In this document: positions 17,943 through 35,841 of the stretch, piece by piece
How the letters are laid out: each line of letters begins with the position of its first letter
Position numbering within the stretch: position 1 is the stretch's first letter
Virus record (IMG/VR): IMGVR_UViG_3300021960_000238
Location: 1-35,841 of that record
From: a virus
Reading direction: 5' to 3' (one strand)
Length of the DNA: 35,841 nt
Position numbers and translations under genes: made by a program
The notes under the pieces: generated by a model
Told to the model about the DNA's origin: nothing
What the model saw: only the letters and a program-made list of their open reading frames with translations
Database searches by the model: none

Positions 17943-18548
17943 ATGCACGGCATAAAAACTCTGAGCGCCCAGATCTGGGACGTTCTATCTAAAGTTGACT
18001 GCAGCGAAGCAGTTGAGAAGAAGGGTGAATTCAACTACCTGTCATGGGCAAAAGGCTGGAAGATGCTCATGCAGGCTGGGTTTACTGACGTTGACTACAA
18101 TTTTGAGCTGACGCACAACCCTGACCAGACCGCACAGGTAAGGTGTACCTTCACTATTCACGTTGGTCATGATTCAGCGACTCATCACGAGACACTTCCT
18201 GTTCTAACTTGGTCTAACAAGCCAATTGTCAATCCGAACTCAATGGACATCAACACTGCTCGCCAGAGGGTGCTTGTTAAAACATTGGCCAGATTTGGAT
18301 TGGGCATAGATGTCTATGTAGGAGAGGATCTGAATGCTTCTGCCTCCGGCAGCGATGCTGTTGGCAAGGTTGAGTATGTTGATGCGGATTGGGTCAGCAA
18401 CGTTAATAAATTTCTGAAGAGCAAAAAGATTGACGTTGAAGAGGTCAACAAAATGCTGATGTCTGTCTACCAGATACCTAGCATTGAAAAGGTACCTGTG
18501 GCCCAGAAGGATGTAGTCGGAGACAGCATCCGGGAGCGTGGACAATGA
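17943..18548 (+). CDS. Single-strand annealing protein, Sak3 type (DUF1071)
   Basis: This 201-residue protein carries the DUF1071 signature EFNYLSWAKGWKMLMQAG (about 29-46), then a beta-rich TFTIHVG and NSMDINTARQRVLVKTLARFGLGIDVY. Sak3 proteins anneal complementary single strands during phage recombination and pair with an exonuclease. The next gene is such a nuclease and overlaps by four bases. The ~60 C-terminal residues are less conserved. First gene after the promoter, so likely early. Confidence 0.82.
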   Translation: MHGIKTLSAQIWDVLSKVDCSEAVEKKGEFNYLSWAKGWKMLMQAGFTDVDYNFELTHNPDQTAQVRCTFTIHVGHDSATHHETLPVLTWSNKPIVNPNSMDINTARQRVLVKTLARFGLGIDVYVGEDLNASASGSDAVGKVEYVDADWVSNVNKFLKSKKIDVEEVNKMLMSVYQIPSIEKVPVAQKDVVGDSIRERGQ

Positions 18549-19159
18549 TAGCTGTTGACGCTGATCAGCGTTCAGACGAGTGGCATGCTGCTCGTCTGGG
18601 CATACCTACGGCTAGTAACTTCAAGAGAATTATTACTGGCACCGGCAAGGCTTCTACTCAGATTGACGATTACATGGACGAGCTCTTAACGGAGCGCCTT
18701 ACTGGCAGGCGTGAAGAGATTTACGTCACCGAGGATATGCAGTACGGGATCGACAACGAGCCCAATGCTAGGGCGTGGTATGAGTACGTCAGCGGTAATC
18801 CCGTTGAGGAGATTGGCTTGTGCCTGCACGACAGCATTAGAGCGGGCGCGTCTCCTGACGGCCTTGTAGACACAAAGGACGGCAAGGGTTGCGTCGAAAT
18901 CAAGTGTCACCGCAAGCCAAAGAAAATAGTCAAGATGCACCGGGAGCAGAAGGTGCCTGTGGAGCACATACCGCAGATACAGGCGCAGCTTTGGGTGCTC
19001 GGTCCTGAATATAAATTTTGCGACTTTGTTGCATGGTCTCATGAGGTGAAACCATTCCGCATGCGTGTAGAGCGGGACGATAAGTACATCGAGAAACTTG
19101 AGCAGCTTGTTGCTGATATGGTTGCGGATCTTGATACATGGGAGGAAAAGCTGTGCTGA
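18545..19159 (+). CDS. YqaJ/lambda-exonuclease-like recombinase
   Basis: This 204-residue protein matches the YqaJ PD-(D/E)XK family: QRSDEWHAARLGIPTASNF (about 8-26), GIDNEPNARAWYEY (Glu72 region), AGASPDGLV with Asp105 and VEIKC with Glu118 and Lys120, then EHIPQIQAQLWV. It should resect double-stranded ends 5' to 3', supplying single strands for the adjacent annealing protein. Its ATG overlaps the annealase stop by four bases. Length is normal for the family. Confidence 0.87.
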   Translation: MIAVDADQRSDEWHAARLGIPTASNFKRIITGTGKASTQIDDYMDELLTERLTGRREEIYVTEDMQYGIDNEPNARAWYEYVSGNPVEEIGLCLHDSIRAGASPDGLVDTKDGKGCVEIKCHRKPKKIVKMHREQKVPVEHIPQIQAQLWVLGPEYKFCDFVAWSHEVKPFRMRVERDDKYIEKLEQLVADMVADLDTWEEKLC

Positions 19160-20206: not shown

Positions 20207-20720
20207 GGTAGTGATTGAGATACCTGCTCTCTGGTGGCACATCGTTGATGAGCTGCCAGAGAAGCTATCTGAGCGATCAATCAATTCATGGTCCAGCAAG
20301 GCTGGGATACTCGGAGAGCTCGCGGTTGTTCAATATTTCAACGCAGAGGGCATTGATTATGAGTATGTTGCCCAGGATAACTTTTCCTGCGATCTGATCT
20401 GTAACGGCCGCAAGGTAGACGTTAAGACCACTGAGCGCCGCGGGTTTGCTAGTGACTTCAACAATGCTCTGCTCACTGATTACCAAAAAGAGCAGGACTG
20501 CGACACCTACATTTTTACGAGCATTCCCAAAGACAAGGGACTTGTTGAGATAGTAGGCTATTGTGACAAGAAATGGTTCTGGTCAAACAACTACGCCAGA
20601 GACCTAGAGGCCGGTGAGAAGGTTGCTGTGAATGCGGTCAAGGAGCCCTGCAGGATCTTGAAGTACGGTTACTTAGCTGACATATATCAGATAGGGAGTG
20701 TGCTGCGTGACTACCACTAG
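20199..20720 (+). CDS. Putative PD-(D/E)XK nuclease-like protein
   Basis: I use ATG 20199 (MNKVVIEIPALW), which overlaps the previous stop by eight bases. The 173-residue protein has GILGELAVVQYF with Glu40, SCDLICNGRKVDVKTTE with Asp65 and the D74-V-K76 motif, consistent with a PD-(D/E)XK fold. YIFTSIPK and VEIVGYCDKKWF follow. It could resolve DNA structures or process ends. No sequence-specific restriction partner is adjacent. Fold inferred from motif spacing. Confidence 0.6.
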   Translation: MNKVVIEIPALWWHIVDELPEKLSERSINSWSSKAGILGELAVVQYFNAEGIDYEYVAQDNFSCDLICNGRKVDVKTTERRGFASDFNNALLTDYQKEQDCDTYIFTSIPKDKGLVEIVGYCDKKWFWSNNYARDLEAGEKVAVNAVKEPCRILKYGYLADIYQIGSVLRDYH

Positions 20721-21285
20721 AAGATGCTCGATGTGCCGGAAGAAGGTAAACGCTGAGTGTGCGGTGTTTGCTGGGATCAAAGCGTTCTGCTGCTGGGAGC
20801 ATTTATTTGAGTGGACCAAGACAGAATCTGCCAGAAAGCTTGCAGAGAAGTCTAGACGCAAAGAGATAACCGAGCAGCGCAAAAGGCTGTCTAGGCGCTC
20901 TGAGGTGCTCAAGAAGGCTCAGATGGCCTTTAACCTGTACATTCGGGTCCGAGATCAGAATAAGCCTTGTATCTGCTGCGCCAGGCCGCTAGAGGGTGAT
21001 GCGATTGGCGGCAAGTATGACTGCGGGCACTACAGGTCTGTTGGCAGCTGCAACTCCCTGCGTTTCGACACCAGGAATGCCCACGGCCAGCTGAAACACT
21101 GCAATAACTATCTGGGCGGTAACGTCGTTGAATATCGCAAAGGGTTGATCAGAAGGTTTGGTCAGCAATTTGTTGAGGATCTTGAGAGCGATACGACAAC
21201 GCGCAAGATGACAAAGGACTACCTGGAGCGCATAGCCAAGGTGTTTAACAAGAAAGCGCGGCTCTACCGTAGAAAATTTAGGTGA
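20707..21285 (+). CDS. ninG: NinG-like Holliday junction protein
   Basis: The 192-residue protein matches NinG/Rap. Paired cysteine motifs occur at the N-terminus (CSMCRKK) and in the middle (CICCARPLEG), followed by YDCGHYRS, SLRFDTRNAHGQLKHCNNYLGGN and VEYRKGLIRRFG. Lambda Rap is a structure-specific endonuclease acting on recombination junctions. I prefer GTG 20707 because AGGGAG at 20692-20697 is properly spaced for it; GTG 20698 would be too close. It completes an exonuclease/annealase/resolvase set. Confidence 0.83.
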   Translation: MTTTRRCSMCRKKVNAECAVFAGIKAFCCWEHLFEWTKTESARKLAEKSRRKEITEQRKRLSRRSEVLKKAQMAFNLYIRVRDQNKPCICCARPLEGDAIGGKYDCGHYRSVGSCNSLRFDTRNAHGQLKHCNNYLGGNVVEYRKGLIRRFGQQFVEDLESDTTTRKMTKDYLERIAKVFNKKARLYRRKFR

Positions 21286-28720: not shown

Positions 28721-29871
28721 TTCCAGCGACACCGACTCTGCGAGAGAGAGCCTACTCAGGTATTCTCAGCGCATTAGGAGGCGGGTCAGATCCTACGGTA
28801 CGGCGCCGAGCAGGTATGCTCACAGGCGTTCTAGACTTCATTCCGGGCTTTGCTACGCCCGCGGACTTCTCTGATGCCAGGCAGATGATTGGCGAGGGTC
28901 AATATGTCCCTGGACTGCTAACCGGAGGCATGGGCATGATGGGCGCGATACCCGGAGTCGCTGCAGCGAATAAAGCCCTGAAGCCGGCAGGCAGGAAGCT
29001 TCTCTATCCAGACAACAGCATCAGCAGGCTAGACTTTAACAACCCGGCACTGATGAGCGCGGAGAGACAGCAGGAGATTAGGAACTCTGAGGCATTCTCA
29101 AGAGGTCTTGATAGGTTTCCGTCAGAGGATATCCAGAGGCAGTCAGCAGAGCTCAATGAGGCTTTGTACCAGGGACAGATAACGCCAGAGCAGTTTCAGT
29201 CAAGCATGTCAGAACTTAGCCCGATTAGGCCGATACAGGGCGTTCCGCAGCTAGAAAGCTGGGAGAATATCGTTGCGTCGATCCCAGCTGGATTTACAAA
29301 AAAGGGCATCATAGGTCTATTTGATGATGTCGTGAAGGCCGGCGACAGAGTGGCAAGCAGGCTAGATATCAATGCCTACAAGAATTTTGATAAATGGGTA
29401 GTTGCGTTACACGGCCCTGGAAGCGGCGGCAAGGCTGTTGGCTACGGCAAGAGCGCGGTTCTCGATAACGTTGATTTCACTTCCAGCCCGGAGTTTTTCA
29501 TGCGAGTAGGCAGGCAAGACAAGCAGAAAGGCCCGCTGGCCAGGATGGAAGGTAACTGGGTCGATGTATCGCCAGAGCAAGCATACGACATGGCCCTAGA
29601 GGCTGATCAGTCAGGTGATTGGGTTGAGGTAGGGTTCAACCCTGACCGAGCATCCTACTTCTACGACAAGGCTTCAAGGCAGCCTCTGGCTAGTGCCCAG
29701 AGAATCATTCAGATAGGCCCGAAGGTTCTGGCAACCAAGCCGGTCTACAGACAGCTCAGGGATCCCGCGCATGCCGTGACAACTGCGTCAGGCGAAACCA
29801 CTTACAGATCAATTGCTGCGCCAGGAATACTGGGCGCCGGCATGATGGCTACGCAGCAGGAGGAGCAATAA
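28705..29871 (+). CDS. Putative co-injected protein with polyvalent-protein-like C-terminus
   Basis: This 388-residue protein begins with LRERAYSGILSALGGG, then a Gly/Met-rich hydrophobic stretch (GLLTGGMGMMGAIPGVAAA, about 73-91) that could insert into a membrane. The C-terminal part (GDWVEVGFNPDRASYFYDK, then IIQIGPKVLATKPVY) resembles a segment I recall from large polyvalent phage proteins. Such proteins are usually packaged and injected. No enzyme motif is clear. Confidence 0.5.
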   Translation: MPQEMIPATPTLRERAYSGILSALGGGSDPTVRRRAGMLTGVLDFIPGFATPADFSDARQMIGEGQYVPGLLTGGMGMMGAIPGVAAANKALKPAGRKLLYPDNSISRLDFNNPALMSAERQQEIRNSEAFSRGLDRFPSEDIQRQSAELNEALYQGQITPEQFQSSMSELSPIRPIQGVPQLESWENIVASIPAGFTKKGIIGLFDDVVKAGDRVASRLDINAYKNFDKWVVALHGPGSGGKAVGYGKSAVLDNVDFTSSPEFFMRVGRQDKQKGPLARMEGNWVDVSPEQAYDMALEADQSGDWVEVGFNPDRASYFYDKASRQPLASAQRIIQIGPKVLATKPVYRQLRDPAHAVTTASGETTYRSIAAPGILGAGMMATQQEEQ

Positions 29872-31358
29872 TGCCACGCAAAGCTGCTTTTGATGTTATC
29901 AAAGATGCGCTGGAGTCGGCCGGATCCTCTATAACTAATAGATTGGTAGATTTGGGTTATTTGGACTCAAGCCTAACAACAAACCCAACTCAAATATCCA
30001 GAGCAACGACAAGATACAAAAACAACCTGAAGAATTCTGGTTTTAGAAATAGGGAGCTAACAGGAGCGGAAAACCAGTTTCAAACAAGCTTTGAGAAAGC
30101 AGACCTTGGCCCTCAAGTTATTGCGGACCTGGACAGCTTGCAGGGAAGCATCTTGAATGCAGTGCAAGGAGATCAGTCTGATATAGGTTTGTTATCAATG
30201 GTTGGCGGTCATCCTGTAAATGTAGATGTACAGGGTGGGTATAATTTCCCGAAACGCTACGCTAATCAGCGTGTTGGATGGGCTTCAAACAAAGGGCAAG
30301 CACAAGGCGTTTTGCAAAAAGGAAGAAATTTGCAAGAAGTCAATCCCGGCAGGGACGTTATTAATATTTACAATGCTATGGGAGCTGAAGCGACTAATTT
30401 TAGCGTTCCTCCCACAGAGTCAATATTAATTCAAATACAGAACAATGACCTTATACCAAAGTCTGTTAAGAACGATTTTGATAGAAAATTAAGAGCAATA
30501 TATCCGCAGTGGGTCGGGTTAGATGACCCTAGGGCTTTAGATCAGTTAACAGGAACTGGAGAGTTTGCGGGTAAGGCTATTGGTAAAATGCGTACCGCAT
30601 TTGTAAAAATTGCTGAAGGCGCTCCTTTTGAATCAAGAGGATTCCCGTCAACAAAAGAGACGATGCGTTCGATCAATGCTCCAGAGCTGGCCGGCAGCAA
30701 TTTAGGAGATGCCGGTTTGTCTATGCACAGGCTGGACACTTCTAGAGATATAGAGCCATCAGATTTGCATGGATCATATTCGCATATAGTTTTTGGTGAT
30801 TATGTTGGTGGAACTCCGCGTGGTGTGCCTTTTGAGGTTATGTTTCCCGATGCGTATGAAACTATTAGCCGAGACGTAAACAAACATGGCGCACCGTTGA
30901 AGAGAAACGAAATAATTAATGCAATAAACACGAGAGGGAGGGCGGGAAATTTTGATGATAAGACCAGAAGGAAGGTTGAGGGAATAACTCAGATAGCTGA
31001 TCAGAAGTGGATTGACACTGTTAACACTTATCTAGAAAAAGGAACCTTGCCTGCTGCGTTGTCTAGCGTCGGGTTGTTGGGATTGGCGTCTGGACCAGAG
31101 GCTCAGGCTGCCGCAATGTATGACAACATTTCAAGAAATGCGCCAGGATCAATCAGGGCGCCGAGATCAGGAATGGCGGCTAGTGCTGCAAACGCCATGT
31201 CAGCTTACAATGAATTTGCTCAGGATCCTAATAGGTCTGGTTTGTTAGGATACTTATTACCAACTGCTCCTGCAGATTGGATGAGAAAGGTCGCGTATGG
31301 CGATAATGTAAGCATGATGGATCGAACGGGCGCAGCGGCAGGACTATTAGGATTCTAA
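29871..31358 (+). CDS. Putative co-injected protein, AT-rich gene
   Basis: This 495-residue protein contains YNAMGAEATNFSVPPTESIL and PQWVGLDDPRALDQLTG followed by MRTAFVKIAEG, a pattern recalled from large polyvalent phage proteins. The C-terminal region has LSSVGLLGLASGPEAQAAA (membrane-like) and ends in AAAGLLGF. The gene is visibly more AT-rich in codon choice than 26756-29870 and than the adaptor after it. It may be a recently acquired cargo gene. Function unknown. Confidence 0.5.
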   Translation: MPRKAAFDVIKDALESAGSSITNRLVDLGYLDSSLTTNPTQISRATTRYKNNLKNSGFRNRELTGAENQFQTSFEKADLGPQVIADLDSLQGSILNAVQGDQSDIGLLSMVGGHPVNVDVQGGYNFPKRYANQRVGWASNKGQAQGVLQKGRNLQEVNPGRDVINIYNAMGAEATNFSVPPTESILIQIQNNDLIPKSVKNDFDRKLRAIYPQWVGLDDPRALDQLTGTGEFAGKAIGKMRTAFVKIAEGAPFESRGFPSTKETMRSINAPELAGSNLGDAGLSMHRLDTSRDIEPSDLHGSYSHIVFGDYVGGTPRGVPFEVMFPDAYETISRDVNKHGAPLKRNEIINAINTRGRAGNFDDKTRRKVEGITQIADQKWIDTVNTYLEKGTLPAALSSVGLLGLASGPEAQAAAMYDNISRNAPGSIRAPRSGMAASAANAMSAYNEFAQDPNRSGLLGYLLPTAPADWMRKVAYGDNVSMMDRTGAAAGLLGF

Positions 31359-31360
31359 CC

Positions 31361-31981
31361 ATGGCTATAACTAACTACAGCGAACTCAAGGCATCCGTGG
31401 CAGATTGGCTGAACCGGGATGATCTGACTTCCGCTATACCTGACTTTATTACACTGGCAGAGGCTCAGATGGAGCGCGATGTCAGGCACTGGAAACAGAT
31501 GCAGAGATCAGAGGGTCAGATAGACACTCGATACTCTCAGCTGCCTGCTGACTTCTACGAGCCCATACGCTGGCACTTGGATGACGGGAGCTCAACCAGG
31601 CTTGAGCTGATCAGCATGGAGGACATGCTGCAGTTTCGCATGGAGTCCAGGGACGCTATGGGTAAACCGAAGTATTACTGCATGACGGGAGACGCCTTGG
31701 AGGTGTACCCGACACCAGACACAACCTACAGCTCGGAGCTCTTGTATTACACCACTCTGCCGGCCCTGTCTGACTCCAACACTACCAACTGGTTGCTGGA
31801 TCACAGCCCGGACGCATACCTGTATGGAGCCCTTCTGCAAGCTGCTGCATATCTCAATGATGACGCCAGGGTGCCTACCTGGAGTGTGTTATACTCTGGA
31901 GCTGTGCAATCGATAAACAATCAGAGCAACAAAGCTAGGCATGGCGGCTCTGGACTACGAATGAAGATCAGGAGTTACTGA
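31361..31981 (+). CDS. Head-tail adaptor, SU10 adaptor-like
   Basis: This 206-residue protein matches the SU10-type adaptor pattern: ITNYSELKASVADWLNRDDL, IPDFITLAEAQMERDVR, LPADFYEPIRWHLD and LLDHSPDAYLYGALLQAAAYLND. Adaptors of this type bind the portal and provide the tail attachment surface. It agrees with the SU10-type capsid. It precedes tail genes with a one-base overlap. Confidence 0.78.
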   Translation: MAITNYSELKASVADWLNRDDLTSAIPDFITLAEAQMERDVRHWKQMQRSEGQIDTRYSQLPADFYEPIRWHLDDGSSTRLELISMEDMLQFRMESRDAMGKPKYYCMTGDALEVYPTPDTTYSSELLYYTTLPALSDSNTTNWLLDHSPDAYLYGALLQAAAYLNDDARVPTWSVLYSGAVQSINNQSNKARHGGSGLRMKIRSY

Positions 31982-32364
31982 TGAGTTTTACAAACGCTTT
32001 TGAGACTGATGTGCTTGAATGGGCATTGACCACTACATCAGTGACACGCCCTACAGCATGGTATGTTGCCCTGTTTACCTCTGACCCTACAGACACTGGA
32101 TCTGCCGGCACAGAGCTCTCAGGTAGCGCCTACGCCCGTGTGGCAGCCACATTCACCGTATCTGGTGACACAGCTACCAACAGCGGAGCGGTAGAGTTTG
32201 CCGCAGCAACTGGATCATGGGGCACCGTGACGCATATTGGCATTTATGACGCATCAAGCGCAGGCAATATCCTGGTGCATGCTGCCCTGACTTCTAGCAA
32301 GGTTATTGATACCGGAGACGTTTTCCGCATTCCTGCTGGCGATCTAGATATTACTCTGGACTAG
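31981..32364 (+). CDS. Small tail protein (gp80-like)
   Basis: This 127-residue protein has FETDVLEWALTT, WYVALFTSDPTDTGSAGTELSG and GTVTHIGIYDASSAGNILVHA, a beta-rich pattern recalled from tail-fibre-linked phage proteins. It overlaps the adaptor stop by one base. Likely a virion tail component. Confidence 0.65.
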   Translation: MSFTNAFETDVLEWALTTTSVTRPTAWYVALFTSDPTDTGSAGTELSGSAYARVAATFTVSGDTATNSGAVEFAAATGSWGTVTHIGIYDASSAGNILVHAALTSSKVIDTGDVFRIPAGDLDITLD

Positions 32365-32367
32365 TAA

Positions 32368-32976
32368 ATGGCTCTCAGGACAGGCTTTGGCACTGGAGCA
32401 TACGGTGTCCACTTATATGGATACCCGGAGGTGTGGGAAGGATCTGCCACTGCCTCCTGTGCTGCGTCTGTCACTGTTAACGGCGCCTATATCAAAGAGG
32501 CGTCTGTTACAGCTACTGTAACAACATCGGCCACAGCGAGCCTCTCAAGGCGTCGTATAGGGTATGGCAGCGGTCCATATGGCATTGACCAGTATGGCTA
32601 CCCAGAGATCTGGGAAGATGCGGTTGCGATTAGCGTTACTTCTAGTATCACTCAGTCTGACGGAGAAAGAGTCAGGACCGCGGCAGCGAGCCCGGCAGCA
32701 TCTGCATCGACTACAGTATCGGCGCAGAGGATACAACAGCCAACTGCTACTGCGTCCTGCGCCGTTACAGCGTCTGCCCAGGGCTTTATGTCGATAGTCG
32801 GAGCTGCTTCAGATACCTGTTCGGCTAGTGTTGGAATTAGTTATGTTAGAATTAGACCATTTGCTGCATCTGACCAGGTTCTCAGCTCAATTACAGACTC
32901 TGACTGCAGATACAAATGGATACCAGTTACCGGCCCATCAGACACTTGGACCGAAGCCAGCTACCGAGGTGATTAA
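32368..32976 (+). CDS. Tail protein with duplicated Gly/Tyr motif
   Basis: This 202-residue protein carries two related copies of a Gly/Tyr-rich segment: GFGTGAYGVHLYGYPEVWE (about 5-23) and GYGSGPYGIDQYGYPEIWE (about 68-86), each followed by Ser/Thr/Ala-rich strands. The rest is Ala/Ser/Thr-rich. It is probably a fibre or needle-like tail component. No family recognised. Confidence 0.6.
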   Translation: MALRTGFGTGAYGVHLYGYPEVWEGSATASCAASVTVNGAYIKEASVTATVTTSATASLSRRRIGYGSGPYGIDQYGYPEIWEDAVAISVTSSITQSDGERVRTAAASPAASASTTVSAQRIQQPTATASCAVTASAQGFMSIVGAASDTCSASVGISYVRIRPFAASDQVLSSITDSDCRYKWIPVTGPSDTWTEASYRGD

Positions 32977-32978
32977 AA

Positions 32979-33644
32979 ATGGCTGATACAACTACCACTA
33001 CTTTTAGTTTAACCAAGCCAGAAGTCGGAGCATCTGACGATACCTGGGGCACCAAGTTAAACACCAACCTGGACGCCATCGACGATTTGCTTGATGGAAC
33101 TACTGCTATCGAACCAAACCTGACCGCAGGCTCCTGGAAGATTGGTGGTACGGCAATTTCTGCTACGGCAGCTGAACTCAACCTGCTTGACGGTGTGACT
33201 GCTACAACCACTGAACTTAACTATGTAGACGTTACAACTCTAGGAACTACAGAAGCCTCCAAAGCTGTCACAGCAGACGCTAACGGTGTAGTGACTTTTG
33301 ATAACGGCATATCTGAAGAGTACACAGCGGTCACTTCAAGCTCTAACGCTACGACTGTCAATCTTCAAGACGGTACAAACTTCTCTCATACACTGACTGA
33401 GAACACTACGTTTACTTTTAGTAACCCAGCGTCTAGTGGTAAGTCTTCTTCATTTACTTTAAAGCTAGTACAGGACGCTAGTGCTTCAGGCTACACAGTA
33501 ACGTGGCCAGCATCTGTTGATTGGCCAGCAGCCACAGCACCAACGCTCACAGCTACGGCCAGCGCAGTTGATTACTTTGTCTTCATAACGCATGACGGCG
33601 GTACTACTTGGTACGGCTTCACAGCAGGACAGGCTCTCGCATGA
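32979..33644 (+). CDS. Tail fibre-type protein
   Basis: This 221-residue protein starts with TTTTFSLTKPEVGASDDTWGTKLNTNLDAIDD-type sequence, the usual N-terminal tail attachment segment of marine phage fibres. The AAELNLLDGVTATTTELNYVD repeat follows, then a beta-rich tip (FTLKLVQDASASGYTVTWP, FITHDGGTTWYGFTAG). It overlaps the long fibre gene by four bases. Confidence 0.8.
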   Translation: MADTTTTTFSLTKPEVGASDDTWGTKLNTNLDAIDDLLDGTTAIEPNLTAGSWKIGGTAISATAAELNLLDGVTATTTELNYVDVTTLGTTEASKAVTADANGVVTFDNGISEEYTAVTSSSNATTVNLQDGTNFSHTLTENTTFTFSNPASSGKSSSFTLKLVQDASASGYTVTWPASVDWPAATAPTLTATASAVDYFVFITHDGGTTWYGFTAGQALA

Positions 33645-35524
33645 GTAAGAAGCTAATACAAGCAGCCGCAGGTGCAGCAGGTGGAGAATCCGTCTATGTA
33701 GAGGATGTGTTCTCTACTTACTTGTATACGGGTACTGGTTCTGCTTTAGATATAACAAACAATATTGACTTGTCTGGAGAAGGTGGGGCTGTATGGATAA
33801 AAAACAGAACTAATGTTTCTAATCATGCTCTATTTGACACAGAACGTGGCGCAGAAAAATTATTATTTCCAGATGATTCAGCCGCAGAGCAAGACAGAAC
33901 AGCAGACAATGATTCTCTTGGTGCTTTTAATTCTGATGGTTTTTCTCTTCAAGCAAGCTCTGGAAATAGAACAAACGAATCTGGTTCAGACTTTGTTTCT
34001 TGGTCATTCCGCAAACAAGCAGGCTTTTTTGATGTTGTGACTTATACGGGTGATGGGACTAGCAGTAGAGATATTGCTCATAACTTAGGCAGCAAGCCCG
34101 GATTTATGCTGACCAAAAGATTAACTACAGGAAATTGGACGGGCTATCATCAATCTTTAGGTTACACAAAAAGAATTTATTTAGATTTGACCAATTTTGC
34201 ATCAACTAATGCTGCAACTTGGGTGCAAGAACCAACAGCAACTCATTTTACAGTTGGAAGTGAAAACACAAGCGGAAACAACTACATAGCCTACCTATTC
34301 GCCCACGATGACCAATCATTCGGTGATAATAGTGATGAATCTATTATTAAGTGTGGGAGTTTTACAACAAATGCTAGCGGCAATGCGGTAGTTAGCGACT
34401 TAGGTTTTGAGCCGAATTGGTTGATGATTAAGCGTTCGTCTGGCTCAGGTAACTGGGAAATTAGGGACGACATGAGAGGGTTTGGGGTCGGGGCTTCGGT
34501 TGACTTAAAAGCCAATGTCAGTGACGCAGAAGGCAGCCCTGAAGCTAATAAAGTTTTTGCTACAGCAACAGGTTTTGAAGCAAATGTTAGTAGCAGCTCA
34601 GACTACATCTACATAGCCATCCGCAGACCAATGAAGACTCCCGAAGCGGGTACTGAGGTTTTTGATTTATCTAACCCAAATACTACTAGACAAGCTAATG
34701 CAGAAATATCAAGCAATCTATCGTATGTTGATATGTTTTGGACAAGGTTTACTGGGCTTACAGATGGTTTTGATTTTTATAACAGGTTAAGAGGCCAAGT
34801 AAAATTAGACCCAACATCTACAGCGGCAGAAGCAACTCAAGATAGAATTAAATTTGACAAAATGAATGGAGTTACATCTGTTGTAGATTGGACAGGAGGA
34901 ACTTCATACGATTTTATAGATTATTTTTTCAAACGCGCCACAGGCTTCTTTGATGTGGTGGCTTATACGGGTGATGGAACATTTGGTGGGAAAAACCACA
35001 ATCTTGGTGTTGTTCCAGAACTAATAATAAATAAAGGGCGAAATTCCACGCAAGATTGGTATGTTTGGTTACCCAACTCCGCTAGTCCGGGCTATGGGTT
35101 TTTAAGACAAATAACGGCTTTTAATAATTTGAATATTGCCGCTACATCCACAACATTTGACCCAGTTTGGGACACAAGTAGCAACACCTACATAGCCTAC
35201 CTATTCGCCACACTAGCAGGAGTAAGCAAAGTAGGCAGCTACACAGGCACAGGCAGTAACGTAGACGTAGACTGCGGCTTCTCGGCAGGTACTAGGTTTA
35301 TTCTCATTAAGCGTACAGACTCTACTGGCGATTGGTATGTTTACGACAGCGAGAGAGGAATCGTGGCAGGTAACGACCCATACTTGCTCTTGAACACCAC
35401 AGCCGCCGAAGTCACGAACACTGACTACATTGACCCGCTCAACGCAGGTTTTACAGTAACATCATCTGCTCCTGCTGGTCTTAACGCCAGTGGCGGGAAT
35501 TATATCTTTTTAGCAATAGCATAG
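33641..35524 (+). CDS. Long tail fibre with repeated beta modules (DUF7483-like)
   Basis: I start at ATG 33641, overlapping the previous stop. The 627-residue protein is built of about five similar modules (YTGTGSALDI, FFDVVTYTGDGTSSRDI, FTTNASGNAVVSDLGFEPNW, FFDVVAYTGDGTFGGKN and SYTGTGSNVDVDCGFSAG), each with a following WYVW/IxKR-type strand. This resembles the repeat fibres of marine phages. It is probably the receptor-binding fibre. It is AT-richer than the genes before it, and its end is followed by the chaperone copy. Confidence 0.78.
   Translation: MSKKLIQAAAGAAGGESVYVEDVFSTYLYTGTGSALDITNNIDLSGEGGAVWIKNRTNVSNHALFDTERGAEKLLFPDDSAAEQDRTADNDSLGAFNSDGFSLQASSGNRTNESGSDFVSWSFRKQAGFFDVVTYTGDGTSSRDIAHNLGSKPGFMLTKRLTTGNWTGYHQSLGYTKRIYLDLTNFASTNAATWVQEPTATHFTVGSENTSGNNYIAYLFAHDDQSFGDNSDESIIKCGSFTTNASGNAVVSDLGFEPNWLMIKRSSGSGNWEIRDDMRGFGVGASVDLKANVSDAEGSPEANKVFATATGFEANVSSSSDYIYIAIRRPMKTPEAGTEVFDLSNPNTTRQANAEISSNLSYVDMFWTRFTGLTDGFDFYNRLRGQVKLDPTSTAAEATQDRIKFDKMNGVTSVVDWTGGTSYDFIDYFFKRATGFFDVVAYTGDGTFGGKNHNLGVVPELIINKGRNSTQDWYVWLPNSASPGYGFLRQITAFNNLNIAATSTTFDPVWDTSSNTYIAYLFATLAGVSKVGSYTGTGSNVDVDCGFSAGTRFILIKRTDSTGDWYVYDSERGIVAGNDPYLLLNTTAAEVTNTDYIDPLNAGFTVTSSAPAGLNASGGNYIFLAIA
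34022..35209 (+). repeat. Nucleotide-level repeats inside the fibre gene
   Basis: A 36-base segment at 34022-34057 recurs at 34943-34978 with about four mismatches. A 22-base segment at 34282-34303 recurs exactly at 35188-35209. These repeats could recombine to change module number or exchange fibre tips. Confidence 0.75.
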
Positions 35525-35841
35525 GTGCAATATGGAATTTAGAGTACGTTCAAGCGGTGAACTGAAATCACAAGGTGAAATCCGCAAACTCAATCCAAAT
35601 GTTTCTTTGCCAAAAGTGTGGAATAGCAACGTCTATGACACTTTGGGCATTGACCCAGTATTAGAAACACCCAAGCCAGACACTACTGGTGACTATAAGG
35701 TAGTGGTTCGTGACGGCGCAGAACAGGACGCGAATAGCAACTGGGTACAGGCGTGGATAGAGCGGGATATGTTTTCCGACACTACGGAAGACGGCGTTAC
35801 TACCACAAAGGCAGAGCATGAGGCTGCGTATCAGGCTAGAC
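35519..35841. repeat. Right copy of near-identical terminal repeat
   Basis: Same alignment as 1-323 with no gaps and 12 mismatches. It includes the fibre gene end and the first 310 bases of the second chaperone copy. Confidence 0.9.
35532..35841 (+). CDS. Tail fibre assembly chaperone-like protein, second copy, truncated by window end
   Basis: This partial gene encodes the first ~103 residues of the same protein as 14-508. Relative to that copy it has Arg48 to Lys and two Thr to Ala changes near the end, with other changes synonymous. No stop occurs before the window ends. It directly follows the fibre gene, the expected position for a fibre chaperone. Confidence 0.8.
   Translation, partial: MEFRVRSSGELKSQGEIRKLNPNVSLPKVWNSNVYDTLGIDPVLETPKPDTTGDYKVVVRDGAEQDANSNWVQAWIERDMFSDTTEDGVTTTKAEHEAAYQAR

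Follow-up and report, generated by a model that had tools for sequence, protein, structure and literature searches.

The non-identical ends of a near-complete phage contig probably carry two alleles of one fibre-chaperone cassette

Why do the two ends of a single phage contig match each other closely without being identical? The window analyzed here is an entire IMG/VR virus record of 35,841 bases, so positions 1 and 35841 are true contig ends (w marks a window position where needed). Bases 35519–35841 align with bases 1–323 over 323 bp without gaps and with 12 mismatches (96% identity, pairwise alignment), a match that cannot be due to chance. In a repeat search of the window, this was the sole long repeat pair. 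The overlap lies where a tail-fibre gene meets its chaperone gene, and the surrounding features, followed across the joined ends, are these:

31361–32976, + strand: left cassette flank, virion structural genes (PHROG 2941 and 240)
32979–33644, + strand: fibre-like adaptor, 221 aa, inside which population variants and homology to unrelated phages both start
33641–35524, + strand: allele B of the tail fibre, which has two DUF7483 domains (listed open reading frame 33608–35524; ATG at 33641 likely)
35519–35841, + strand: right contig end, carrying the same chaperone gene as far as its nt 310, where the contig stops; allele B
1–323, + strand: left contig end, with the final two codons of a fibre gene (6 nt, GCA TAG), a 7-nt spacer and 310 nt of the chaperone gene; allele A
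14–508, + strand: tail-fibre assembly chaperone, complete, 164 aa (Pfam Phage_tail_APC, PF16778; PHROG tail fibre assembly)
1203–2684, + strand: right cassette flank, virion structural protein (PHROG 3287)

The chaperone gene lies directly 3' of the fibre stop codon, and its product scored 73.6 bits against PF16778 (cut-off 26.6).

The initial annotation had described an ungapped match of this length with 12 mostly synonymous mismatches, three of them just before the chaperone ATG, and realignment gave the same picture. In left-copy numbering, the mismatches fall at sites 10, 11, 12, 97, 156, 178, 205, 211, 305, 310, 317 and 323. Sites 10–12 read ACT in the left copy and CAA in the right, and lie in the spacer that separates the stop codon of the fibre gene from the chaperone ATG. 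Six of the nine coding mismatches are silent, with silent differences in codons 28, 55, 64, 66 and 99; site 323 opens a leucine codon, TTG in the left copy, and changing this T to C is silent provided that the other two bases are the same. The other three change an amino acid (R48K, T98A and T102A). The dN/dS alignment of the two copies proposed in the annotation gave a dN of 0.013 and a dS of 0.078 (Nei–Gojobori).

Two kinds of programmed variation were considered and rejected. An inversion switch was set aside as the repeat search found no inverted repeats of at least 30 bp in the window, and a diversity-generating retroelement because silent changes predominate and a scan of the larger proteins showed no reverse transcriptase.

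The window represents the near-complete genome of a podovirus-like phage, ~35.5 kb long and circular when read through, as terminally redundant or permuted DNA would be. In Octadecabacter virus DB2, a complete circular isolate whose portal protein is 49% identical to that of the window, the genes for TerS, TerL, tail, fibre, portal and capsid are contiguous. The ends of the window divide this terminase-to-capsid block, and closing the circle restores the gene order found in DB2. The nearest isolates infect Rhodobacteraceae, which are a likely host group. A nucleotide search against isolated phages gave no match.

Closely matching contigs show that the cassette varies on a nearly constant backbone. 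One of them, L014, which is of the same species as the window, differs from it by 8 mismatches over w324–23584. Within w1–323 it differs from the left copy at three sites (156, 205 and 211), in each case carrying the base of the right copy, so that three haplotypes of the chaperone start exist, one at each end of the window and one in L014. Upstream of the chaperone, L014 has a fibre end unlike that of the window despite the near-clonal backbone, so fibre alleles segregate on that backbone. The L014 sequence, representing allele A, is 92% identical to allele B over the final 657 bp of the alignment, which span the fibre end and the chaperone start, and the fibre proteins of the two alleles are about 72% identical in their best segment. 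A second contig, L122, has 17 mismatches to the window in 7,966 bp, all within 33111–33458, and none over w25718–33110. We infer that both contigs come from phages that co-occur with that of the window.

We consider it very probable that the end overlap consists of two alleles of one gene, contributed by different strains with a circular genome, and that it is not a repeat within one genome. The population would contain phages with almost equal backbones and differing alleles of a host-recognition cassette, made up of the 221-aa fibre adaptor, the two-domain DUF7483 tail fibre and the chaperone, and the assembler would have broken the genome there. The contig would then begin in the cassette of allele A, run around the backbone and end in the cassette of allele B, with both alleles presumably present in the window's own sample.

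Contig ends in relatives carry a signature consistent with such a break. An assembly edge ending at a branch point retains a single shared k-mer, a trace that allele bubbles leave behind. One of the k-mer sizes used by SPAdes is 127, the maximum in JGI assemblies, which are made with this program. The first 127 bases of L014, and no more, match w34842–34968 exactly, after which the two diverge. Similarly, a related phage from another sample (G018, 34,642 bp) has both contig ends inside its own fibre gene, where blocks of 75%–85% identity lead into a 220-bp alignment at 98.6%, of which the last 127 bases are exactly identical. The window's own ends share no exact 127-bp overlap, as expected if alleles A and B do not rejoin before site 323. 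We note that in a contig-end survey of two sets of 80 relatives, breaks in the cassette were not above those in control flanks, so the cassette is not a preferred break site in general.

The initial annotation had left two options, a meeting of two strain variants at the assembly junction or a longer genome with two fibre-chaperone copies. In the second, two tandem units would occupy the site, the contig would lack the middle (the end of chaperone B and all of fibre A) and the genome would be ~2.4 kb longer. Tandem fibre genes and second chaperones do occur in some relatives (L003, L005, L006 and L066), and a de Bruijn graph would likewise break at two copies within a single genome. Against this arrangement, L017, the nearest sister phage (94% identity over w1–10457), carries on one contig the left flank, the 221-aa gene, one fibre, one chaperone and the right flank. 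The flank-to-flank distance is 3,760 bp in L017 and 3,748 bp in the closed window, and L017 overlaps L094 by 1,998 identical bp, with L094 leading back to w23624. Among ~70 distinct contigs with both flanks, the recognisable chaperone is single except in L066, which has two divergent ones (54% and 31%), and two units between the same flanks are absent from L017 and most spanning relatives. L066 and L003, the latter with fibre, chaperone and fibre in tandem, are more distant relatives. The second chaperones of relatives are divergent or shorter, and none was seen as a 96% copy. Additionally, several haplotypes of the cassette sit on one backbone in L014 and L122, so population alleles are needed in any case. 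We therefore regard tandem units as quite unlikely, and a version in which the phage keeps two near-identical units as a switching store of receptor-binding variants, reshuffled by gene conversion, as very unlikely. The strain-variant option is strongly supported by the fibre alleles on a near-clonal backbone, the 127-bp signatures in relatives, the single cassette of L017 and the gene order restored on closing the circle.

Under a different reading, the mismatches would be sequencing or assembly errors at low-coverage contig ends whose true sequences are identical. The differences do sit at contig ends, and the G of the left copy at site 156 was in none of the relatives examined. Against this, the right-copy bases at all 12 sites are present in independent natural relatives, so the mismatches are not errors; this is the opposite of the single identical end sequence that the annotation had named as grounds for refutation. 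The CAA at sites 10–12 was found in alleles of the L008–L012 type and the bases GGGC at sites 305, 310, 317 and 323 in L010–L013. The two occur together in L010, L011 and L012, which we call type II chaperone alleles, with L013 carrying GGGC. With these natural alleles and six silent changes among nine in coding sequence, sequencing error was rejected and the reading as a whole is extremely improbable. It is next to impossible that the overlap is a genuine terminal repeat, on a linear genome, whose two copies have drifted apart. A direct terminal repeat could well be 323 bp long, but replication copies one end from the other and so keeps them identical, whereas these ends have 12 mismatches in 323 bp. 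The overlap also lies within the fibre and chaperone genes, a position that in the complete relative DB2 is halfway along the tail block, and relatives run straight across the site.

The reading as two alleles also bears on how the ends should be joined. Type II alleles part from the left copy immediately past site 323, and four of the 12 mismatches fall in the last 19 bases of the overlap, which suggests that the allele B chaperone continues into a different 3' end. Joining 35841 to 324 may thus create a hybrid chaperone gene. No contig linking allele B to a chaperone end and to w509 onward was found, and a search for the window's fibre allele elsewhere gave no near-identical copy.

The limits of the variable segment point to the unit that is exchanged. 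Homology shared with otherwise little-related phages usually starts at about w33139–33267, inside the adaptor, or at the fibre start, and ends near w500, at the chaperone stop. The first population variant of the cassette is at 33111. From these limits, the exchange unit appears to be the end of the adaptor, the fibre and the chaperone. We note that 33150–33220, the usual left homology limit with unrelated phages, is the AELNLLDGVTATTTELN stretch of the 221-aa adaptor, which is possibly a recombination hotspot. The genome also encodes three proteins relevant to exchange:

17943–18548: Sak-like annealing protein
18545–19159: RecE-like exonuclease
20698–21285: NinG

Their presence makes homologous exchange at conserved patches plausible, and alleles may have been swapped in this way. 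Within the fibre gene itself, two pairs of near-identical stretches lie ~910 bp apart (34020–34059 with 34941–34980, and 34266–34303 with 35172–35209), and these are possible substrates for gene conversion or for assembly confusion.

Variable host-recognition genes on near-clonal phage genomes have been described as metaviromic or metagenomic islands (Mizuno et al. 2014, PMC3909814; Bellas et al. 2020, PMC7468147). The phage of the window similarly combines a near-identical core with variable host-recognition genes: the backbone is ~100% identical between strains in L014 and L122, and sharp divergence is confined to 33111–33458, the fibre allele and the chaperone variants in w1–323, apart from a smaller variable spot near w23585. 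Judged from its sequence, the cassette is a variable receptor-recognition cassette of this already-known kind, and a clear example of it. In the window, two alleles of the island stand at the two ends of one contig. Microdiverse islands, including tail genes, are known to defeat de Bruijn short-read virome assemblies (Warwick-Dugdale et al. 2019, PMC6487183); unlike those breaks, the one here left an almost complete contig whose overlapping ends are not identical. Fibre and chaperone modules move between distantly related phages, as in the host-recognition module shared by Alteromonas phages A5 and V22 (PMC10579305). The tail fibre and chaperone of the window likewise appear to travel together between distantly related phages, but the fibre family is DUF7483 and the hosts are probably roseobacter-type.

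A non-identical end overlap escapes end-repeat detection that relies on identity. Where the ends of a near-complete contig overlap imperfectly within a fibre gene, they should be taken to indicate a circular genome whose host-recognition cassette varies, not duplicated genes or a linear fragment. Such seams mark sites of within-population variation in receptor-binding alleles. The near-complete phage contig G018 (L284, L286) likewise has ends that overlap in its fibre gene without being identical, so the seam in the window is not a unique case, and others may be findable in the same way.

Variation was also observed outside the fibre cassette. A second, smaller variable spot lies near w23570–23632, past which the L014 contig has a ~230-bp insertion with a small open reading frame between two copies of a CAGACCCGCTTAACTGCGGGTTTGGCAGTAGAAG repeat (L201, G001:20000-24662). 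Additionally, the 1.5-kb gene at 29871–31358 is swapped in L094 and L123 for ~1.19 kb without a nucleotide match, between flanks that are 93%–97% identical.
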